Shown piece by piece: positions 49,495-64,000 of a stretch of 64,000 bases of DNA. The notes below the pieces were generated by a model. The model saw only the letters and a list, made by a program, of their open reading frames with translations, had not been told where the DNA came from and did not search any database. Within the stretch, counting starts at the first letter, position 1, and each line of letters starts with the position of its first letter. Source of the DNA: an uncultured Caldilineaceae bacterium (GTDB lineage Bacteria; Chloroflexota; Anaerolineae; Caldilineales; Caldilineaceae); the NCBI GenBank assembly GCA_951813625.1, contig CATOTS010000024.1, positions 124,001-188,000 of the forward strand, given 5' to 3'. The position numbers and the translations under genes are program-made.

Positions 49495-50583
49495 TCATGC
49501 CTCCCTGAGCGCTTGCACGACAAGATCGCCCATCACCTCGGTGCCGGTAGTCTCGGTGCCCGGTTGGGCGATGTCAGGGGTCCGCACGCCCTCGGCAAGC
49601 ACAGAATCGACCGCTGTCTCGACAGCGACCGCCTCTTCTTCCAGGCCAAGGCTATGTCGCAGGAGCATGGCGCTGCTCAGAATCGCGGCCAGCGGGTTGG
49701 CGATGCCTTTCCCGGCGATGTCCGGCGCGCTGCCGTGAATCGGTTCGTAGAGGCCCAGGGGCAGCTCGTGCCGGTTGCTGATGTCGCCCAGGCTGGCGGA
49801 AGGCAGCATGCCCATCGAACCGGCCAGCATCGACGCCTCGTCGGTGAGGATATCCCCGAACAGGTTGCCCGCTACGATCACGTCGTAATCGGCCGGCCGG
49901 CGAATCAGATGCATGGCCATCGCGTCGACGAGGACGTGCTCGACCTCCAGTTCGGAATAGTCGGCAAGCGTTGCCGTTGCCACGCTGCGCCACAGGCGGG
50001 ATGAAGCGAGCACGTTGGCCTTGTCCACGCTGGTCAGACGCTTGCTTCGCTCCATCGCCGAGTCAGCGGCGAGGCGGACGACCCGTTCGATTTCGGGCCG
50101 AGTGTAGACCATCGTGTCGTATGCCTCGAAGTTGTCGTCGGCCTCCTTGCGTGGGCCGAAATAGATGCCGCCGGTCAGCTCGCGCACAACCAGCAGGTCG
50201 ACGCCTTGCAACGCCTCTTCCTTGATCGTGCTGGCCGACAGGAGTTCGGGCTGGAGCTTTACGGGGCGCAGGTTGGCGAATAGGTCGAGGCTCTTGCGCA
50301 GGGCAAGTACGCCGCGCTCAGGTCTGTCAGGCATGCCTGGATCGTCCCACTTGGGCCCGCCGACCGCGCCGAGCAAAACGGCTTCGGCCTTTGCTGCGGC
50401 CTCCACGGTTTCATCGGGCAGGCTGGTGCCCAGCTGATCGATCGATCGACCTCCGATCATCTGATGATCAAACTCGATGGTGTGCCCAAACCTATCGGCC
50501 ACCGCGGCCAGGATTTTCCTGGCTTCAGTCGTAACTTCAGGGCCGATGCCGTCGCCGTCCAGGATGACAATCGTTGCTTCCAT
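49495..50583 (-). CDS. leuB: 3-isopropylmalate dehydrogenase
   Basis: NAD-dependent oxidative decarboxylase of 362 residues. In leucine synthesis it acts on 3-isopropylmalate and in the citramalate route on 3-methylmalate. Seen: [49 protein letters not shown] (substrate loop), [28 protein letters not shown] (metal Asps) and [19 protein letters not shown] (NAD site). AAGGAAAGG precedes the ATG. Directly upstream is a stable hairpin with a T-rich tail, so expression may be controlled separately from leuCD. Confidence 0.96.
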
Positions 50584-50597
50584 GCGTGCCTTTCCTT

Positions 50598-50646
50598 AAG
50601 AAAACGCCCACTCCCTCAAGGCTGGGCTTGAGGAGTTTGTGGGCGC
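50598..50646 (-). terminator. Terminator- or attenuator-like hairpin in the leuB leader
   Basis: On the minus strand an outer stem CGCCCAC/GTGGGCG and an inner stem CTCCTCAAG/CTTGAGGGAG (one bulged base) with a six-base loop are followed at once by TTTTCTT. The structure lies between the methyltransferase stop (50658) and the leuB start codon (50583), its tail only about ten bases upstream of the leuB ribosome site. Confidence 0.7.
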
Positions 50647-50657
50647 TAATGGGTTGT

Positions 50658-51503
50658 TCAGTCTTCGTCTTCGCCTCTCGGCTGGGGACGTCTTCCCCCG
50701 AATACGGCCAGCTCGAATACCTTGAAGTAGCAGTCTACGTCTTCGAAGCCGATTCGCCGCAACCAGTCGCACTGCAGCTCTACCGGCGCGAGGAGATTGG
50801 CCTTCTTGTCCTCCCGTTTGCGGTAATCCATGGCCACTTGGTCGCGGGTCTGCGCCTCGCTTCCGGTCAGCTGACTTGCCCACAGACTGTCGATGAAGTA
50901 GTCGTCGTAAAGCCCTTCGATGTAGGGCGTGGCCGAGGAGACGTGTTCGACATTGACGAAGACGCCGCCCGGCTCCAACAGGTCGAAGATGTCCAAATAG
51001 ATCTGGCTCTTGACCGGGTCGGGCTGGTGGTGGATGGAGAAACCGGATACGACTACATCGAAGGGAGCGTGGGCGGAAATAATGTCGAACCAGGCGGGGT
51101 CGGAATAGTCAACCGAAGAAATGTGAAGGGACTTGCTGAAGGCCTGCAGGTTGCGAACTGCGGCCTGGATCATCGGCATCGAGAAATCAACCAGCGTCCC
51201 CCTGGCTTGGGGGTACCTATCCAGTACTGTAGCGGCCAGAATGCCATCACCGCAGCCCAGGTCCAGAAAGTTTCGAACCGGCTGTTCGCCCAACTCGGAG
51301 GCGTTCTTGGCCCCGGCAACTACCCGCATCATCACATCCAGCTGGATCTGAGCCAGGGGCAGCCCTTTGCGCGCCTGGAGCAGGTACTGTTTGACCAGGC
51401 CGGGGTCCTTCCACACCGAACTCGTTGACTCCGCCGCCGCGTCTGCCGCCACTTCGCTCAATCCCCTCCGAGTCCCCGGTCTTACGTCACTTGTAACTTG
51501 CAT
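50658..51503 (-). CDS. Class I SAM-dependent methyltransferase
   Basis: A 281-residue methyltransferase with the Rossmann-like core: NFLDLGCGDGILAATVLDRY (motif I), TLVDFSMPMIQAA (motif II acidic residue), FDVVVSGFSIHHQPDPVKSQ (motif IV region) and LLEPGGVFVNVEHV. It belongs to the broad Methyltransf_25/UbiE-like group; the substrate is unknown. The frame extends to 51662, but the ATG at 51501-51503 avoids overlap with leuD. It is inserted between leuD and leuB, 38 bases after leuD, and followed by the leuB leader hairpin. Confidence 0.88.
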   Translation of the reverse strand: MQVTSDVRPGTRRGLSEVAADAAAESTSSVWKDPGLVKQYLLQARKGLPLAQIQLDVMMRVVAGAKNASELGEQPVRNFLDLGCGDGILAATVLDRYPQARGTLVDFSMPMIQAAVRNLQAFSKSLHISSVDYSDPAWFDIISAHAPFDVVVSGFSIHHQPDPVKSQIYLDIFDLLEPGGVFVNVEHVSSATPYIEGLYDDYFIDSLWASQLTGSEAQTRDQVAMDYRKREDKKANLLAPVELQCDWLRRIGFEDVDCYFKVFELAVFGGRRPQPRGEDED

Positions 51504-51541
51504 TTGCTTCTTTGCAATAGGCAACCAGGAACGAACAACCG

Positions 51542-52143
51542 TCAAAACGACGCCGCGGCTTCGAAGGCGCTGATCTGCTCCTCCTTGTCCAAAAGATAGC
51601 CAAGATCGTCGAGTCCGCGTAGCAGACATTGCTTGCGAAACGGATCGATTTCGAATGTCCAACTGTTTTGTGAGCCGCCAATTTGGGGCAATTCGACCGT
51701 CTGGCGCGCCAGGTCGACTGTAATCTCAGTTTGCGGGAGCTCTTCGACCAGGTCGAGAAGGTGCGCTACGCTCTCTTCGGCCAATTGAATCGGCAACAAC
51801 CCGTTCTTGAGGCTGTTGTTGTAGAAGATGTCGGCGAAAGCAGACGATATCACCGCCCGAAAACCGTACTGGGACAGCGCCCAAACGGCATGTTCCCGGC
51901 TCGAGCCGATACCGAAATTTCGGCCTGCCACAAGCACTTCGGCGCCCCCGAATTGGGGCTGGTTCAGGACAAAATCCGGATTGGGGCTGCCGTCGCGATT
52001 GTACCGCCACCAGGAGAAAAGGCCGTCACCCATTCCAGCCTGCGTTACCGCTGTCAGGTAGCGCGCCGGGATGATCTGGTCGGTATCGACGTTTTCCACC
52101 CGCAGGGGCATGGCGGTCGAAGTCAGCTTTGTAAAGGCCTGCA

Positions 52144-52144
<1 letters not shown>
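51542..52144 (-). CDS. leuD: 3-isopropylmalate dehydratase small subunit
   Basis: A 200-residue swivel domain of the aconitase family: NVDTDQIIPARYL, GRNFGIGSSREHAVWALSQY (substrate-binding loop) and FADIFYNNSLKNGLLPI. With LeuC it isomerises 2- to 3-isopropylmalate, and also citramalate to 3-methylmalate. The ATG at 52142-52144 overlaps the leuC TGA by one base; a GTG one codon earlier is possible. Coupled translation with leuC is expected. Confidence 0.96.
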
Positions 52145-53547
<1,403 letters not shown>

Positions 53548-53594
53548 GCACCGATTCCTTTTCTCTCGCGAAGGGACTCAGGTCGCCCGGCGGC

Positions 53595-55094
53595 CTAAGG
53601 CAAGCTTGTTTCCCCCATCAGGTAGCGGTCGCACTCACGCGCCGCTTCGCGCCCTTCGTTGATGGCCCACACGACGAGGCTCTGACCGCGGCGCATGTCG
53701 CCGGCCGCGAAGACGCCGGGCACGTTGGTGGCGTACTTGCCGTACTCGGCCTTGGCATTGGAACGCGCATCCCTTTCCACGCCCAACTGGTCCAAAACAG
53801 GGTTTTCCGGCCCTCTGAAACCCATCGCCAGCAACACGAGCTGGCAGGGCCACACTTTCTCGGTGCCGGGCACCTCGCGCAACTGCGGACGCGCGCCGTT
53901 CTCGCTCGGCAACCACTCGATCATCACCGTGTGCAGTTCCTTCAGCCGCCCCTGTTCATCGCCGACAAAACGCTTGGTACTGATCAGGAACGTACGCGGG
54001 TCGGCGCCGAAGCGTTCGGCAGCCTCGGCATGACCGTAGTCGACGCGGAAGATATTCGGCCATTCCGGCCAGGGGTTGGTTGGCGCCCGCGACGGCGGCG
54101 GCTTGGGCATAATCTCGAACATATTGACGCTATTGCAGCCATGGCGCATCGAAGTGCCGAGGCAGTCGTTACCGGTGTCGCCTCCGCCGATGACGATTAC
54201 GTCCTTGCCTTCGGCTGAGATGTAGGGATAGCCGAAGCCCTCCCCCGGTAATGCGCCATATTTGTCGTCCAGGAGCTGCTTGGTGTTTGCGTGCAGGAAC
54301 TCCATGGCGAAGTGTACGCCATCCAGTTCGCGGCCTTCGATCGGCAGGTTGTTCGGGTTCGTTGCGCCGCCGCACAGAACGACCGCGCTGAACTCGTCCA
54401 AAAGGCTGTCAGCGGCAATGTCCCTGCCAACTTCACAGTTGGTGATGAAGGTAACGCCCTCGGCGCGCATCAGGTCAACACGACGTTCGACCCGCTCCTT
54501 CTCCAACTTCATGTTGGGGATGCCGTACATGAGGAGGCCGCCGATGCGGTCAGCCCGCTCGTATACGGTAACGGTGTGACCCGCCGCGTTGAGCTGCGCG
54601 GCGCAGGCAAGCCCCGCCGGCCCCGAGCCGACTACGGCGACCCGCTCCCCGGTGCGAACAGCGGGGGGATGGGGGACAACCCACCCCTCCTCAAAGCCGC
54701 GATCAATGATGGCGCACTCGATGCTCTTGATCGTAACCGGCGGCTCGATCAGGCCCAATGTGCAGGAGCCTTCACAAGGCGCTGGGCAGACGCGGCCCGT
54801 GAACTCGGGGAAATTGTTTGTGGCGTGTAGGCGGTCCAGCGCCTCGCGCCAGCGATCCAGGTAGACCAGATCGTTCCACTCAGGAATGAGATTGTTGATG
54901 GGACAGCCGCCCTCGGGCATTGTCCCGGTATGGCAGAATGGGATGCCGCAGTCCATGCAGCGCGCGCCCTGATGCTGCAAGTCCTGTATCGTCAGATGCA
55001 GATGAAATTCATCCCAGTCCTGAATTCGTTCAAGCGGCGAGCGCTCCGGAAAGGTTTGCCGGTCGAATTCAAGAAAGCCAGTCGGTTTACCCAT
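53595..55094 (-). CDS. gltD: Glutamate synthase (NADPH) small subunit
   Basis: A 499-residue FAD/Fe-S subunit that passes electrons from NADPH to GltB. Seen: N-terminal cluster cysteines in [12 protein letters not shown] and [18 protein letters not shown] loop [20 protein letters not shown] loop [15 protein letters not shown], and a late FAD motif [31 protein letters not shown] precedes the ATG. It is 78 bases after gltB; that gap contains a near-palindromic repeat. Confidence 0.97.
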
Positions 55095-55106
55095 CGCTCA
55101 TCTCCT

Positions 55107-55175
55107 GACTGCGTATTGCGTTTACACATTGATTCGCAATACCGGTTACTGCAGGGGCCCGATACGCAATACTCA
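55107..55175. repeat. Small palindromic repeat between gltB and gltD
   Basis: GACTGCGTATTGCGT (55107-55121) and the roughly reverse-complementary GATACGCAATACTCAGT (about 55160-55176) can pair across a 38-base loop. The 15-mer recurs exactly at 2351-2365, inside the start of lysJ. It may be a small dispersed hairpin element or a processing site between gltB and gltD. Confidence 0.5.
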
Positions 55176-58100
55176 GTTTCCGCTAACTCGCGCCGCAAGG
55201 TCCTGGCTGTTGCGTTGGAACGCCGCCATCATCGCCTCCGCGCCCTTGAGACCGGTGGCTTCGACTTCGGCCAGGCACTGCTGCATGCGCTTATAGTCCT
55301 TGGGCAAAACTTTGACAAATCTGGGCAAGTATTCGTCCCAATTCGATAGGACGCGTCTGGCAACCTCTGAATTTGTAAAAGCATAGTGGCGCTGGACCAT
55401 TGCGCGCACCTCTTCGCACTCCTCCGGGTCCTGCAGTTCGTCGAGTTCGACCATTTCAAGATTGACACGTTTGTCGAAGCGAACGCCGTCCACCGGCTTC
55501 TCGTCGAGTACGTAGGCGATGCCGCCGGACATGCCCGCGGCAAAGTTGCGTCCTGTGCGCCCCAGCACGACGACGCGTCCCCCCGTCATGTACTCGCATC
55601 CGTGGTCGCCGACGCCCTCGATGACCGCCTGCATGCCCGAGTTGCGCACGCAGAAACGTTCGCCTGCCATGCCGCGGACGTAGGCCTCTCCGCTCGTGGC
55701 GCCGTAGAAGGCGACATTGCCGATGATGATGTTGTCCTCGGCTTTGAAAGTGGAACCGTAGGGGGGATAGGCGATGATCTTGCCGCCGGAAAGCCCCTTG
55801 CCGAAGTAGTCGTTGCCGTCGCCTTCCAGTTCCAGCGTCAGTCCGCTGGGAATAAAGGCGCCGAAACTCTGGCCGGCCGCACCCTGGAAATGCAGCTGGA
55901 TTGTGTCCTCCGGAAGGCCTTCGGGGCCAAAGCGGCGAGTGATCTCGCTGCCGGTGATTGTGCCAACGACGCGGTTGGTGTTGCTGATTGGCAGCGTTGC
56001 GCGTACCTTTCGCAACGCGTCCGCGGCGTCTCCACCCTCCTGCCCTTCGCGCGCCCGTTCTACATCCTCTACGCTGTTTTCGAGGGCCGGCTGGCATAGT
56101 TCGAGCAGTGTCGTATTGTCCAGCGCCAGCTCAAGGCCGTGGTCCTGATCGATCTGACAGTAACGTCCCCAGTCGTCGGGAACGTCGGGCCGGTGCAGAA
56201 TGGCGGTCAGGTCGATTCCCTGCGCCTTCCAGTGGTCGATCGCATGCCGTGCATGCAGCCTGTCGGTACGCCCGATCATCTCATTCACGGTGCGGAAACC
56301 AAGTTTCGCCATGTACTCGCGCAACTCCTGCGCAACGAAGCGCATGAAATTGACCACATGCTCCGGGTCGCCGGTGAACTTCTCCCGCAGCTCGGGATTC
56401 TGTGTTGCGACGCCGACCGGGCAAGTGTCCAGGTGGCAAACACGCATCATGATGCATCCGAGCGCCACAAGCGGGCTGGTGGCGAAACCGAACTCCTCGG
56501 CGCCCAGCAGCGCGGCGATCGCGAGGTCGCGCCCTGTCTTGAGCTGGCCGTCGGTCTCGACAACGACGCGGCTGCGCAGGTTGTTGATAACGAGCGTCTG
56601 GTGCGTCTCAGCGACGCCCAACTCCCACGGCAGGCCGGCATGTTTGATGCTGGTCTGCGGCGAGGCGCCCGTGCCGCCGTCGTGTCCGCTGATAAGGATA
56701 ACGTCGGCGTGACCCTTGGCGACTCCGGCGGCGACCGTTCCCACGCCCACTTCCGATACCAACTTGACGTTGATGCGCGCGTGATGGTTCGCGTTCTTCA
56801 GGTCGTGAATCAACTCGGCCAGGTCTTCGATAGAGTAGATGTCGTGGTGCGGCGGCGGCGAGATTAAGCCCACGCCCGGCGTCGAGTGCCGCACTTCGGC
56901 GATCCACGGGTAAACTTTCTTGCCGGGCAGCTGACCGCCTTCGCCCGGCTTGGCGCCCTGCGCCATCTTGATCTGCAACTCCCTGGCGTTGACCAGGTAG
57001 TTGCTCGTAACGCCGAAACGGGCCGATGCAACCTGCTTAATGGCGCTGTTCTTCGAATCGCCGTTCGGCTCCAGGGTATAGCGGGCCGGGTCTTCGCCGC
57101 CTTCGCCGGTGTTGCTGCGACCGCCAATGCGGTTCATGGCGATGGCGAGCGTTTCATGGGCCTCCTTGCTGATGGAACCGTAGGACATCGCGCCGCTCTT
57201 GAAGCGTCTGCAGATCGATTCGACCGGTTCGACCTCTTCGATCGGGATGCTCGACGCGCTGTCGAAATCGAATTCCAGCAGGCCGCGCAGGTTGCACCAC
57301 TCCTTGTTCATCTCGTCGATATCTTTAGAATAAGCCTTGAAGGAGTCGTAGTCTTCGGTTCGCGTCGCCTGTTGCAGCAGGTGGATGGTACGCGGGTTGA
57401 AAAGGTGAAGCTCGCCGTCGCTGCGCCATTGGTAGTCGCCGCCGGGGGCCAGGAGCTGCCCGCCGCCGCTGCCATTGCCGTTGATGGCCGGTTGCATTGC
57501 GTCGCCAGCGTGGCCGTTTTCATTCAGGTTCGAATAGATTCGGACAGGGTAGGCGCGATCATGCCGCATCTTGACTTCGGCGTAGATCTCCGGCAGGTCG
57601 ATGCCCTCGACGCGGCTTGCAGTCCAGGTGAAGTACTTTTCGACCAGCCGCTGGCTCAACCCCAGGGCTTCAAAAATCTGCGCGCCGCAGTAGCTCTGGA
57701 TCGTCGAAATACCCATCTTCGACAGGACTTTAACAACCCCCTTCATCGCAGCCTTAACGTAATTGTAGACCGCGGTGTCGTGGTCGATATCGACGAGAAG
57801 ACGGCTCTGGATCATCTGGTCGAGAGTTTCCATCGCCAGGTAGGGGTTGACGGCCGTGGCGCCAAAGCCGATCAACAGGGAAAGGTGATGGACTTCGCGC
57901 GGCTCACCCGATTCGACTATGATGGCGGTCTGCGTACGCGTCTCATTGCGGATCAGGTAGTGATGCAGACCCGATGTCGCAAGTAGAGCGGGTATCGGCG
58001 CGATGCCGGGCTCGACGCCGCGGTCAGAGAGGATCAGGATGTTGAAACCCTCTTCGATCGCATCGGTTGCAGACTGGAAGAGGTCCTCGAGCGCCTGTTC

Positions 58101-59987
58101 CAGCGCATCGGGCCCTCCGTTTACGTCAAAGAGGATTGGAAGGGTCTTGGCGCGGAACCCCTTGGCGTCGCTCTCTTCGATGTGCCGAATTTTGGCCAGC
58201 TCGCTGTTGGTGATGATGGGCTGGCGCAGCTTGAGCTGACGGCAGTTTTCGGGCATTGTTTCCAAAAGGTTCAGCTCTGTGCCAAGCATCACCTCGGTGG
58301 CTGTTATCAACTCTTCGCGGATGGCATCGATGGGCGGGTTGGTGACCTGTGCAAAGAGCTGCTTGAAGTAGTTGTATAGGAGCTGCGATTGGTTCGACAA
58401 GGCCGCGGCCGGCGTGTCGTTGCCCATCGCGCCGAGCGCCTCGACGCCGTCGGTGGCCATCGGCGCCAGCAGGATGCGCAACTGCTCGAATGTGTAACCG
58501 AATATCTGCTGGCGCTCGATGAGCGTACTGTGATCGACGCCGGGTACCTCAGTGTCCGGCTGGGGAATCTCATCAAGGCTGACCATGTGCTCGTCGAGCC
58601 ATTCGCGGTAAGGTTGCGCCGTAGCCATCGTCTCCTTCAACTCTTTGTCGGAGATGATGCGGCCCTGGTTGGTGTCGACGAGGAACATCCGTCCCGGCTC
58701 GAGGCGCGACTTCAACAGTATGCGATCCGCTTCCATCGGCAGGACGCCGACCTCGGAGGCCATCACGACCATGCCGTCCTTGGTGACACAGTAGCGCGAG
58801 GGGCGGAGGCCGTTGCGGTCCAGCACGGCGCCGACAACCGCGCCGTCGGTAAAGACGATGGAAGCGGGTCCGTCCCACGGCTCCATCATCGTGCTGTGGT
58901 ACTCGTAGAATGCCTTCTTTTCGTCGCTCATCGTCTCGTGCTGCGACCACGGCTCGGGGATCATCATCATCATTGCGTGCGGCAGCGAACGCCCAGACAG
59001 GTAGAGAAACTCGAGCGTTTCATCGAACTTGGCCGAGTCGCTGCCGTCATCGTGGATGATGGGCAGGATCTTCTTGATGTCTCGGCCGAACAGTTCGCTC
59101 TTGAACTGCGACTGGCGGGCGTGCATCCAGTTCTCATTGCCGCGCAGCGTGTTGATTTCACCGTTGTGGATCATGTAACGATAAGGATGGGCGCGTTCCC
59201 AACTGGGGAACGTATTTGTGCTGAAGCGGGAGTGGACGACGACCAGCGCCGCCTCCACATCTTCGTCGAGCAGGTCGGGATAAAAGCCCTTGACCTGGAT
59301 CGACATAAGCATGCCCTTGTAGACGACAGTACGCGACGAGAGGCTGGCAATATAGAAGGCGTCCCCTTCGCGCACCTGCGAATAGCGGATCCGGTTTTCG
59401 GCCTGCTTACGAATTACGTAGAGTTTGCGCTCGAATGCGAGGTCGTCGCTACCGGTCAGCCGATCCGGGTTCCGCCCAATGAAGATCTGGCGGACGATTG
59501 GTTCACCCAATTTGGCGGTGTGCCCAAGCGCGCTGTTTGCGGTCGGAACGGTGCGCCAGCCGAGGACTGTCTGCCCTTCGGCGCGGATGATCTTTTCGAA
59601 CATCTGCTCGCAGAGGAAGCGGTAGTCTCCTCTCGGCGGCAGGAAGATCATTCCCACAGCGTAGTCGCCGGCCGCGGGCAGATCGATCCCTTCGGCCGCG
59701 GCAACCTTGCGCATGAACTTGTCCGGCATTTGCATGAGCAAGCCGGAGCCGTCGCCAGTGTTCGGCTCGCAGCCGCAAGCGCCGCGGTGCGCCAGGTTGA
59801 GCAGGACCTGCAAGCCCTGGGCGACGATCGCATGCGATTTTCTGCCCTTGATGTCGACGACGAATCCTACGCCGCAGGCGTCGTGTTCGTAACGCGGGTC
59901 ATAGAGACCCTGTTTCTCGGGCAGGCCGTGGTGGGAATGTTGCGTGGGATGAAGGGAACAGGAGGGAGTAAAATCAGACTCTACCAT
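55173..59987 (-). CDS. gltB: Glutamate synthase (NADPH) large subunit
   Basis: A 1604-residue multidomain enzyme making two glutamates from glutamine and 2-oxoglutarate. In order: class-II glutaminase domain with nucleophile Cys38 in HDACGVGFV, which becomes the N-terminus after removal of a 37-residue propeptide; central domain; FMN-binding synthase domain with [20 protein letters not shown] and the [3Fe-4S] cysteines in [19 protein letters not shown]; and a C-terminal beta-helix domain with repeated Gly motifs ([23 protein letters not shown]). GAGGAGATGTCGTT precedes the ATG. It heads the long minus-strand amino-acid run. Confidence 0.97.
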
Positions 59988-60218
59988 AACGACATCTCCT
60001 CATAAAGCTTTAGTTTCGTATCGTTCGCTCTGAGCGGCCAACCACACGTTCTCTTGACCGCAAACGAACGCTCGTAACTAACAACTAATGCGAAGCAAGA
60101 CCAACTGCGCAGACCGGATGACGTCGTTGTCGATACGTGCCTACCTTGCCTACTGGCCTGGTTATGAGAAACCAATCCAATAACATTCCGGCTACTCTAC
60201 ACGAAAATGGCTATATCG
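59988..60218. other. Leader region of gltB
   Basis: 230 bases between the YbjQ-like gene and gltB, without a gene. It must contain the promoter that drives the gltB-ilvD run unless transcription continues from the upstream unit. No box pair is clear enough to annotate. Confidence 0.4.
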
Positions 60219-60548
60219 TCAACTTTCTTTCTCCTGGACGTGCAAGCGATAACCGTTGCCGTAAATGATTACCTCAACGCCGCCATCGACCACGAGCGGA
60301 TGGCTGATTTTCACGCCCAGGACGCCGTCATACCCTTTCGCAGACGCCTTCTCCTCAAGGTCGGCGAGTCCCTGCTCGATCGCCTTGGAAATCAGCGATT
60401 CGTAGTGGGACATGCGCCCCCCAACAAGATTGCGAATGTTCTCACGCACATCCTTCACAATGTTTGCCGCGTACACCACGACCACCACCAGCAGTTCGCC
60501 GACCTCCGCCTCGTGTCTATGCGGCTGATCGAGTGCGACCAGGTCCAC
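60219..60548 (-). CDS. YbjQ-like (DUF74, heavy-metal-binding-domain) small protein
   Basis: A 109-residue protein of the YbjQ/DUF74 family: [20 protein letters not shown], the helix [20 protein letters not shown], then [11 protein letters not shown] and a final beta strand pair. Family members form pentamers of unknown function. The start is GTG at 60548, overlapping the TAG stop of the preceding membrane protein gene by one base (TAGTG), so the two are translationally coupled. In the canonical family the region after the helix is GANAVVG; here GYDGVLG. Confidence 0.8.
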
Positions 60549-62503
60549 TAGTCATCCTCCTCATCGCTTCGAGTTTCGATTCTCCTGATACCGGAGTCGC
60601 TCTCGTTGGTGCCCTGATTGTTGGGCACAATGACGTTCACATTGACGTCCTGCCGGCGCCCGGGAAAGACCCGCCGCCAAACTATGTACAGCGCGATTAG
60701 ACCTGCCAGCACGAAAAGAACATTGAGAAGAATGCGGCCGTCATGACGCCAGAAAAGGGAGAATGGCAGCTCACCCGAAACCGTCGGCCCGATGGCGGCA
60801 AGCATATCGAAGGTATTGCCTATCCAGTTGCCGCGTTCTGTTCTTTGCCCAACGTAGTTAAGCGCCCCTTCAAAATCCTTGCTGGCCAGCAGTGCCCCCC
60901 GCACGATGCCGGCGTTCAGTTCGGCCTTAATCTCCGGCTGGCGCAGGATTCGATCAACCAGAATATTCCTTAAGCGCTCGTCGAGGACCGACAAATAGTC
61001 CTCTGCGAGCCAAGTCAATTCCTCGACGGAAAGAGCATCCAGGATTTGTGTGATGTGAGCCTTTGGCAGTCCCAACACTGCCCCGCGGGCGTCCGCATCG
61101 AGCAACATTAGTTTCTGGATCAGTCCGGCTTCGCCCACTGCAAGTACCCGCTCCAGGTCGGCACGATCTCTGAAGTCGGAGGGAGATGAAACTCGATAGA
61201 GCTCCTTTTCGATTACTTCCACCATCGATTCGCCCGCCAGATCCGCCCAGTCGATTGCTACCTGGGGGTCATCGACAACTGCGAGCATATCAAGTGATTC
61301 CTCTGGAAGACCAAGTAGCCTTTCGAAATGTCCACTGTCGATCAGTTCTCTTAGTCGTTCTAAGCCGAATTTGTCCTCGACCAAAGTAGCGAAATCGGCG
61401 AGCTTCTGCACCTCTTCGACGGCGGTGTTGTCAAGAATGTTCCTGAACCGCACTTGATTCTCTGCAAGCTCAAGCACGCGGGCATACTTCTTGCGGAACT
61501 CCTGCCACTGGCCGTAAACGTCGTTGGAAATCGAGCGCGCCAGTTGAGGAAATTCCCTACGCAGTTCTTCGTCCACAATTTCTGCGACTTGCGCGCGAAT
61601 TTCCTGCTTTACCTCTTCGCCCTGGAGGGCATCGCGAATCAATGGCAGTGATCCTTCCCTGGCGTCCCAAAAGTCCCAAACTATAAGTCCGGCTCCGATA
61701 AGCCAACCGACGACTGGTATCACTACGCCACCAATTCTTCCCAGTACGCGCAATAACACTTTCCCTGCAATCTTTTGGGCAAATTTCTTTCCCAGACTAT
61801 TGGCTAGTTTTGAGGCAACGATAATGCCAACTCCGCCCAGCAACTTCGGCTTTGATTTCGCAATATCCAGAAAATCTAGTTCCTCATTCGTAGAAGGATC
61901 CAGATCTTCCAACCTGGTCTGAAGCTCTTCTTCCAATACGGCCGACATCGTCGGCGAAATCGTATCGCCAATATACGCCTGAACACACAGCAGAGCTGAT
62001 GATGCAGACCTTGCAGTAATCAAATGAACTTTACCCACGACATCGTCGGAGATATTCTGTGACAGTCCGTCGAATGCCTCCCGAAGTTGTTGGGAACCGA
62101 AGGCGTCAAGGGCAACTCTTTCTGTCAGTTCCTTCGCTTTGTCAGGAGACCACGCCGAAATCAATCGCTCCCAGTATCCTGTCTCTTCCATCACCTTCTG
62201 CGTGGCAGCCGCCACCGCGTCATTCACAGCCGCATCCAGGTTCAGAGCCGCCCAATTGCGATCCACTACGGCGGCAATCTCGATTCCACCTTGCTCTTCG
62301 GCAATGACAGCCTGTGTGATGCGGTTCAACTCGTCGCGCAGACCTGTCGAACTAATCTGGTCGCACTCCTCGAATGTGTAGGAAGCAGGGCCAGTTGCTT
62401 GAGCGCGCACTGTTTGTGCCGGCAGGAAGGCGGCGAGCAGAATCGCGATCAAGAGACCAATGCCGAATCGAAAGTTCGAGGAAAGCGAGGGAGCTGGAAG
62501 CAT
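60548..62503 (-). CDS. Membrane-anchored repeat-domain protein of unknown function (B)
   Basis: About 651 residues. N-terminal signal peptide or anchor ([20 protein letters not shown], then AQA), an outside region to about 205, a Gly/Ile-rich hydrophobic stretch around 225-275 ([20 protein letters not shown]), one copy of a ~190-residue repeat (about 370-560; [51 protein letters not shown]), and a C-terminal transmembrane helix ([18 protein letters not shown]) with a short charged tail. The same repeat occurs twice in the upstream protein. I do not recognise the family. The start at 62503 lies 32 bases after the upstream stop and follows GGGA. Confidence 0.8.
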
Positions 62504-62535
62504 GGTTATTCCCAATATAGGCTGCGGTGGCAGAT

Positions 62536-64000
62536 TCAATTCTCCAGGTATTTCGGCCTTCTGAATGCCCATACGCCCGCTAGCGCCAAGGCGACAAGCA
62601 GAACTGCCAAAAGGACGAGCGAGGGTGTCAGAAAATAATGACTGTAGAGCGCCAATGGAATGTCGCCATTAACTAAAGGAACAGCGGCGGTCAGCATTGC
62701 GATCGTTGGCCAAATGGCAACGGGTTTCTCTACCCTCTTGTCTATGAAGACCAGCAAGCGTTCTATTCTACCGTCGCGCAGCAGAGCATCTCGGACCGTC
62801 TCGTTGTCCAGCTCCTGCAACAGACCCGGCCGACCGGCAACTCGTGAAGCCAGCAATTCGCCCTCAACCTTGGGCAAATGTGCAAGGTAGTTCGGGATCA
62901 ACCAGGTAATTTGCTCCATTTCGAGCGAAACAAGCATCTGCTTTGCCGCGCCTGGCGCGAGACCTAGTACGACTTCGCGTTCGCTCCGCTCGAGTTGGAT
63001 GACCACCTCGAAGGCTTTGGTGTCGTCAAGTGCCAAGACGGCATCGAGCTCAACCTTGTCGCGAAACATTTCAGGAGATGCGACGTCGAAGATCTTTGTC
63101 TTGACGACTTGAACGAAAGAATCTCCCGCCAGCTCGGCCCACCCGATGACAAGAGCAGGTTCGGCTTTCCCTCGCAGAATCTCGAAAGCTGCCTTTGGTA
63201 AGTCGAGAATGCTTTCAAACTGACCGGACTCAATCATCTTGACCATCTTTTCCGGCGACAATTCTTCCTCGGCCAAAACCAACAGTTCCGTAAGTTTTTC
63301 GAGTCCATTTACGTTTGTTGATTCGACGATATCCTTGAACAGAGAAACCGTCGATGCCGTCTCAAGCACCCGAACAAACTTCCCTGCTAACTCTTCAGAA
63401 CTCAACAGTCTTTGAACGAGTCCTTTCTTCTCCACCGCCAGTTGCGCCAGTAGCTGCTGCGTTGGGGGACCCAGCCCTTCCAGGTATATGGTCAGCCACT
63501 TGAGCTCTGGTTCAGAAAGATCCGACAGCAAGATTTCCCTGGCTTCCTCGGGTGGAAGTTGCAGCAACCCTTTCCTCTCTTCTTTGTCAAGGCTCATCAA
63601 GGTCTGAATGGCAAGCGGATGTTCGAGATCAAGCACCTGCTCAAGTTCTTCGCGCCCCCTGAAGTCCTCAGGTTGGAATACTCCGTATAGTCCGGTCTCA
63701 GCGACACGAAGAATTGCCTCTCCAGCCAGGTCGGCCCAGGAGACCAATAGAGCAGGATCTCCGGTTGCTCGCAATATCACAAAGGTCGCCTGAGGAAGAG
63801 CAAGAATAGTCTCGAACTGCCCAGAACTGATCATATTTTTCAATTGCCCCGGCTTCAGGACCGCAATTGCTGTCGAAGAAAGCGACGTGAGCTTGTCCAA
63901 GTCTTCAGCGCTTGTTGCACCCAGGATAGTCCGGAAGGTAGGGCTCTCAGCCGAGAGCGCCAGCACCAGCAGAAACTGGCCTTGCAATTCGTCAGAGGAC
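62536..64000 (-). CDS. Membrane-anchored repeat-domain protein of unknown function (A), 5' end outside the window
   Basis: 487 residues are visible; the frame is open to the window edge, reading SSDELQGQF, the start of a repeat unit, so more protein lies outside. Two tandem copies of a ~190-residue unit are present. Key positions: SGQFE followed by IL-LP, WADLAGE or WAELAGD, a DF or MF-R segment before EL-AVL or EL-QVL, then a Leu/Pro segment and WLT-YL or WLIPNYL. A C-terminal transmembrane helix (SLVLLAVLLVALALAGVWAF) precedes RRPKYLEN. The internal spacing is regular and predicted all-helical, like a HEAT-type solenoid. Family unknown to me. Confidence 0.8.
   Translation of the reverse strand, partial: SSDELQGQFLLVLALSAESPTFRTILGATSAEDLDKLTSLSSTAIAVLKPGQLKNMISSGQFETILALPQATFVILRATGDPALLVSWADLAGEAILRVAETGLYGVFQPEDFRGREELEQVLDLEHPLAIQTLMSLDKEERKGLLQLPPEEAREILLSDLSEPELKWLTIYLEGLGPPTQQLLAQLAVEKKGLVQRLLSSEELAGKFVRVLETASTVSLFKDIVESTNVNGLEKLTELLVLAEEELSPEKMVKMIESGQFESILDLPKAAFEILRGKAEPALVIGWAELAGDSFVQVVKTKIFDVASPEMFRDKVELDAVLALDDTKAFEVVIQLERSEREVVLGLAPGAAKQMLVSLEMEQITWLIPNYLAHLPKVEGELLASRVAGRPGLLQELDNETVRDALLRDGRIERLLVFIDKRVEKPVAIWPTIAMLTAAVPLVNGDIPLALYSHYFLTPSLVLLAVLLVALALAGVWAFRRPKYLEN

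Follow-up and report, generated by a model that had tools for sequence, protein, structure and literature searches.

Why should two membrane-anchored proteins of an unnamed family sit together with a small YbjQ-family protein in the middle of a leucine/glutamate operon, and what might the three do together? The question arises at the right end of the window, by which we mean the whole analysed stretch of 64,000 nucleotides from an uncultured Caldilineaceae bacterium (G000:C24:124001-188000), where the genes, here called A, B and ybjQ, lie on the minus strand. The contig extends past the window's right edge, and the full A gene encodes 1026 residues (L002:4536-7616, L002:7616 being window-equivalent 65616), with its signal peptide, N-domain, hydrophobic hairpin and first repeat outside the window. 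The features within the window are these:

62536..64000, minus strand: protein A, C-terminal 487 residues; the open reading frame leaves the window at its right edge
63391..63975, minus strand: A repeat 2, residues 548-742 (profile and model)
62794..63378, minus strand: A repeat 3, residues 747-941 (profile and model)
62563..62628, minus strand: A C-terminal transmembrane helix, about residues 997-1018 (sequence)
60548..62572, minus strand: protein B, 674-residue open reading frame; probable true start TTG at 62539
62402..62479, minus strand: B signal peptide, about residues 32-57, ending in VRAQ (sequence; hydropathy peak at residues 34-55)
61853..62401, minus strand: B N-domain, residues 58-240, modelled as all-helical, with invariant Cys70 and Cys196 (alignment and model)
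61673..61846, minus strand: B hydrophobic hairpin, residues 243-300, with GGVGIIV (alignment; charge pattern)
60902..61486, minus strand: B repeat, residues 363-557, predicted alpha-solenoid (profile; model)
60659..60739, minus strand: B C-terminal transmembrane helix, about residues 612-638 (hydropathy)
60551..60658, minus strand: B tail, probably cytosolic, with the motif V-[NHS]-V-x-[VIL]-x-[VILM]-P
60219..60548, minus strand: YbjQ-family protein, 109 residues, GTG start, PF01906 match, without signal peptide

The three genes are preceded by ilvB, ilvH, ilvC and leuA and followed by gltB, gltD, leuC, leuD and leuB (leuD, ilvB and ilvH being named from sequence and position, without profile search), giving the order ilvBHC-leuA-[A-B-ybjQ]-gltBD-leuCDB. 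The presence of gltB and gltD inside the leucine operon (window 49495-59987; L002:7735-13281) makes a superoperon that is common to much of the genus. A 538-residue open frame runs antisense to gltB (window 58389-60005, plus strand) and most likely arises from codon bias at high G+C. A search for RNA elements adjoining the three genes found none.

Judged from their junctions, A, B and ybjQ form a translationally coupled cassette. The stop codon of B and the start codon of ybjQ overlap by one base in the window (TAGTG), an arrangement that the first-pass annotation had read as a fusion of the third gene in translation; it is a stop/start overlap, that is, coupling, and many relatives have ATGA or GTGA at the same place. 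Between A and B, the relatives have TAGTG, and the window probably has TTGA, where a TTG in the B frame at 62539 overlaps the A stop.

The reading frames of A and B were confirmed to behave as real genes by their dN/dS between close relatives, 0.17-0.32, against which LeuA and GltB stand at about 0.04 and YbjQ at 0.05-0.14. The two proteins are thus under purifying selection, with a rate of change several-fold, about five times, above that of the enzymes encoded next to them. Such fast change fits exposed proteins without proving exposure, and it could also come from relaxed constraint.

A and B share one plan: a signal peptide, an N-domain of about 300 residues, a hydrophobic hairpin, one or more repeats of about 195 residues and a C-terminal transmembrane helix. 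The first reading of the window had recognised a shared module of about 190 residues and, in both proteins, a C-terminal transmembrane helix with a short charged tail; both features are real, and the two proteins have more in common than the module, namely the N-domain and hairpin, which are the best-conserved part and hold most of the invariant columns (in mature-B numbering C13, E24, W50, S82, W84, F101, C139, G190, R218, P229, G232, G236, D243, G250 and P253). B does have its own signal peptide, as was claimed, and it is not the only one, since A has its own as well. Both cysteines are kept in all 27 aligned members, 18 of which have exactly two cysteines and six of which have four, the counts to be expected if the domain is exported and disulfide-bonded. 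The hairpin loop has a mean net charge of +4.1 between flanks of -2.5 and -2.8, and this charge pattern, read by the positive-inside rule, suggests that the loop and the C-terminal tail are cytosolic and that the N-domain and repeats lie outside. Together, the signal peptide, the invariant cysteine pair and the charge pattern argue for export and membrane anchoring, as first proposed. The tail motif is kept in 19 B copies, and its V-N-V-T-V segment is a candidate contact for YbjQ; neither A nor the deep-branching B and B' copies have the motif, which rules it out as the general contact.

The repeat gives these proteins their variable length. With a profile built from B copies, the single repeat of B (residues 363-557) scores 223 bits and three repeats in A (residues 350-543, 548-742 and 747-941) score 155-181 bits each; the two copies counted earlier in A are those visible in the window, and extension to the right brings the total to three. 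Among relatives the number is 1, 3 or 9. Repeat copies in the window's genome are only 33-40% identical and same-position repeats broadly group across genomes, from which we take them to be old, and the nine copies in G004 are 63-94% identical and cluster with one another beside the B repeat of the same genome, which makes that array a recent and private expansion. A half-repeat duplication within the 195-residue unit was considered and is not claimed (hhalign probability 16%). For repeats 2 and 3 of A, AlphaFold confidently predicts an all-helical alpha-solenoid (pLDDT 91.3, pTM 0.74), in line with the helical solenoid suggested from the window alone. The model of full B is weaker (pLDDT 73, pTM 0.51), with low confidence in the hairpin and tail, and the alignments behind the models are shallow, with 13 and 20 rows. 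A fold search against PDB and viral models gave no global match, the best for the tandem-repeat model in PDB having a VIA Z of 7.9 at an rmsd of 11.5, which by itself is no evidence that the fold is new.

By sequence, too, A and B are a family without a convincing profile match. Neither they nor other family members scored over the curated cut-off of any Pfam or NCBIfam profile, and searches of A and B against PHROGs and PDB sequences returned nothing; the view that the family is undescribed and carries no named domain has thus stood, a known-domain match having been sought in all four collections without occurring. Only weak matches to LeoBC, LeoB and PDC-S29/S30 were found among anti-phage defence systems, and we do not assign such an identity. 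Relatives on plasmids or phages numbered zero. A profile search of 396 genomes of the class and 400 of the phylum, partly overlapping, gave nothing convincing outside Caldilineaceae; of the weak phylum-sample matches, the two that were read are low-complexity runs (IAARIAARIA) and were not accepted as relatives.

Within the genomes searched, the family is therefore confined to Caldilineaceae, and there it is inherited with YbjQ. Among 37 Caldilineaceae genomes, mostly metagenome-assembled and with short contigs that hide genes in some, 31 carry both B and YbjQ and five carry neither; YbjQ never occurs without B, and B occurs without YbjQ in a single genome, at a contig end. A hand calculation gives p of about 1e-5 for this table assuming independent genomes; the genomes are related, and the tree weighs more. 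On the LeuA tree, absence of the cassette needs four changes, a basal pair (G031 and G036) and three nested losses of the whole unit (G011, G017 and G032). In G011, sister to the window's genome, gltB comes straight after leuA, and A, B and YbjQ have left no trace; the same holds for G017 and G032. Inheritance of A, B and YbjQ is all-or-none: the genes do stay together in other genomes, a point on which the first-pass annotation had asked for comparison, and homologues in which they are never adjacent were looked for and did not occur. The cassette has three layouts: B-YbjQ, A-B-YbjQ and, on deep branches, B-YbjQ-B', in which YbjQ is flanked by two paralogues of about 620 residues. The clearest split seen is in L057 (G025), where B is separated from the YbjQ-B' pair by seven genes. 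B' paralogues 3' of YbjQ (L053, L055, L058, L060, L061 and L063) have an extra cysteine pair between hairpin and repeat, and several of them a Pro/Thr-rich spacer ahead of the anchor. One member of the family Caldilineaceae (MPML, bin5) is a symbiont of the sponge Aplysina aerophoba (PMC5649159).

The third protein had been called YbjQ-like, and it matches PF01906 (YbjQ_1) at 53.1 bits against a cut-off of 23 (E 5e-14), as do, over the cut-off, all cassette copies found. Metal binding is putative in the YbjQ_1 family itself. The cassette protein aligns to 2gtc, 1vr4 and 1y2i and matches positions 17-98 of the profile only, the first 15 or so diverging, compared to positions 1-103 for canonical Chloroflexota copies; lacking a signal peptide, it is likely cytosolic. 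YbjQ is widespread, being present in 10 of 14 control genomes, and a literature search found no published function for it. Other Chloroflexota loci (L147, L149 and L150) encode a multi-domain YbjQ variant, proteins of about 270-290 residues with repeated YbjQ-like stretches FTSDLSVNEFLLVKxAGFDPxGLVVGSSIY, whose genes stand in tandem in L149.

We propose, tentatively and at somewhat under an even chance, that A and B are exported, membrane-anchored helical rods of variable length with a cytosolic YbjQ partner that helps their assembly or clustering, and that they serve as a surface spacer or recognition arm. The signal peptides of A and B would be cleaved on export, leaving a helical and probably disulfide-bonded N-domain outside the membrane, a hydrophobic hairpin that dips into or crosses the cytoplasmic membrane, an alpha-solenoid rod of at least one unit of about 195 residues standing outside, and a C-terminal transmembrane helix with a short basic tail in the cytosol. 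YbjQ, made from the same message, would be the standing cytosolic partner of A and B, perhaps binding their membrane-proximal cytosolic parts (the hairpin loop or the tail) and thereby helping to assemble or cluster them. The rod, its length set by the number of repeats, would act at the cell surface as a spacer or as an arm for recognition. The earlier picture of a surface or envelope-stress assembly made in fixed ratio with a small oligomeric protein finds partial support here; the fixed ratio, the envelope-stress role and an oligomeric state of the cassette YbjQ would be conjecture. Co-occurrence, joint loss, stop/start overlaps, export features, the solenoid model, the variation in repeat number and the evolutionary rates together led us to this reading; the link between A/B and YbjQ is well supported by inheritance, and the physical contact and the surface role are our inference.

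An unlikely alternative is that the cassette is a sensor or signalling unit, in which the exported N-domain and solenoid would sense an envelope condition, for which metal, redox through the cysteine pair or osmotic load are candidate cues, and the signal would cross the membrane to cytosolic YbjQ. The invariant cysteine pair and the strict pairing with YbjQ are consistent with such a scenario, as is the fold that YbjQ has in common with RcsF and DUF1471 proteins (PMC4092069), an argument, however, of resemblance only. A nine-repeat tandem expansion would be unexpected of a sensor, and the neighbours of the cassette, which are partly annotated, showed no conserved kinase, sigma factor or other output gene.

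We consider a membrane-remodelling role quite improbable, in which the N-domain and hairpin would be an exported, membrane-held relative of a dynamin-like stalk and its membrane paddle, lacking the GTPase. This lead was followed from the match of B residues 131-377 to the PADLOC LeoBC profile (E 4e-5), a profile matched by six of the 27 members, and in structure the B model comes closest to the stalks of SynDLP (Z 8.3, rmsd 8.0, 253 aligned) and DRP1 (Z 7.5); Z values below about 13, however, are common among helical bundles. Profile-profile comparison with 24 dynamin-like proteins from Chloroflexota of the same class gave probabilities of 1-3%, with the hairpin not paired with the paddle, and hmmsearch in both directions stayed near the reversed-decoy level, without clear separation. 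A and B lack a GTPase domain, with no GTPase match in Pfam or NCBIfam, and the LeoBC match covers profile positions 336-567 only. A dynamin-like origin, confirmed by neither hhalign nor hmmsearch, is thus a low-probability lead. The window's genome also has a LeoBC-type dynamin-like match over nearly the full profile elsewhere (G000:C53:33274-34947), as do many genomes of the class. A machine for shaping or tethering membranes, with an exported GTPase-less stalk and paddle on an adjustable solenoid arm controlled by a cytosolic YbjQ ring, seems to us highly improbable; if true, it would provide the first defined partner of YbjQ.

The setting within the leucine/glutamate operon might point to a metabolic role, and it counts against the exported-rod reading. 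The place of the cassette is fixed inside ilvBHC-leuA-...-gltBD-leuCDB in the window's genus and is next to leuA in most others, as might be expected of a membrane platform for, or a regulator of, the branched-chain amino acid and glutamate enzymes, for example. Nevertheless, we regard such a role as very unlikely: G011, G017 and G032 have the enzymes and dispense with the cassette, the main domains of A and B appear to lie outside the cytosol, and the stretch read around the cassette in G022, G034 and G035 showed no gltB. Pore formation or contact-dependent antagonism, with the hairpin between long helices carried on an arm and YbjQ shielding the producer, would draw on the modelled long helix - hydrophobic hairpin - long helix of B, the fast evolution of A and B and the patchy loss of the cassette, but it is made a poor prospect by the C-terminal anchor that holds the protein permanently in the membrane of the producer itself, the slow evolution of YbjQ, the place within a housekeeping operon, the zero plasmid or phage copies and a variable tip that was not seen.

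Lastly, we compare the exported rods that we propose with known systems. LeoBC and SynDLP share with A and B a weak profile match and a weak structural likeness of the N-domain and hairpin to stalk and paddle, but A and B lack the GTPase domain, appear to be exported, and their homology is unconfirmed by profile-profile comparison. The repeat resembles helix-turn-helix solenoids (TAL effectors, MTERF and DHR designs) only locally, in its short paired helices (Foldseek E about 1e-3 for TAL effectors), with TM-scores of 0.13-0.22, VIA Z of 4.7 or lower for TAL effectors and no Z of 8 or more; its unit, moreover, is of 195 residues and apparently exported, so that DNA binding is not expected. The cassette YbjQ is by sequence a member of the YbjQ/UPF0145 family (PF01906), whose solved relatives (1vr4, 2gtc and 1y2i) are pentamers (PMC4092069), a state known from those relatives; it differs in being coupled to putatively exported membrane proteins, and no comparable partner was seen at ten YbjQ loci elsewhere in Chloroflexota. 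With a strict, co-inherited partner, the role of YbjQ becomes testable here. Caldilineaceae carry an unnamed gene set for apparently exported, membrane-anchored, rod-like proteins that is inherited and lost with YbjQ, with a repeat unit confidently predicted as a solenoid and changing in number between relatives. Surface repeat proteins with tandem stalk domains are the general kind that A and B resemble, in their signal peptide, variable tandem repeats, C-terminal anchor and fast evolution, and from which they differ in an unnamed repeat family, a hydrophobic hairpin on the N-terminal side and a partner, YbjQ, that is likely to be cytosolic.
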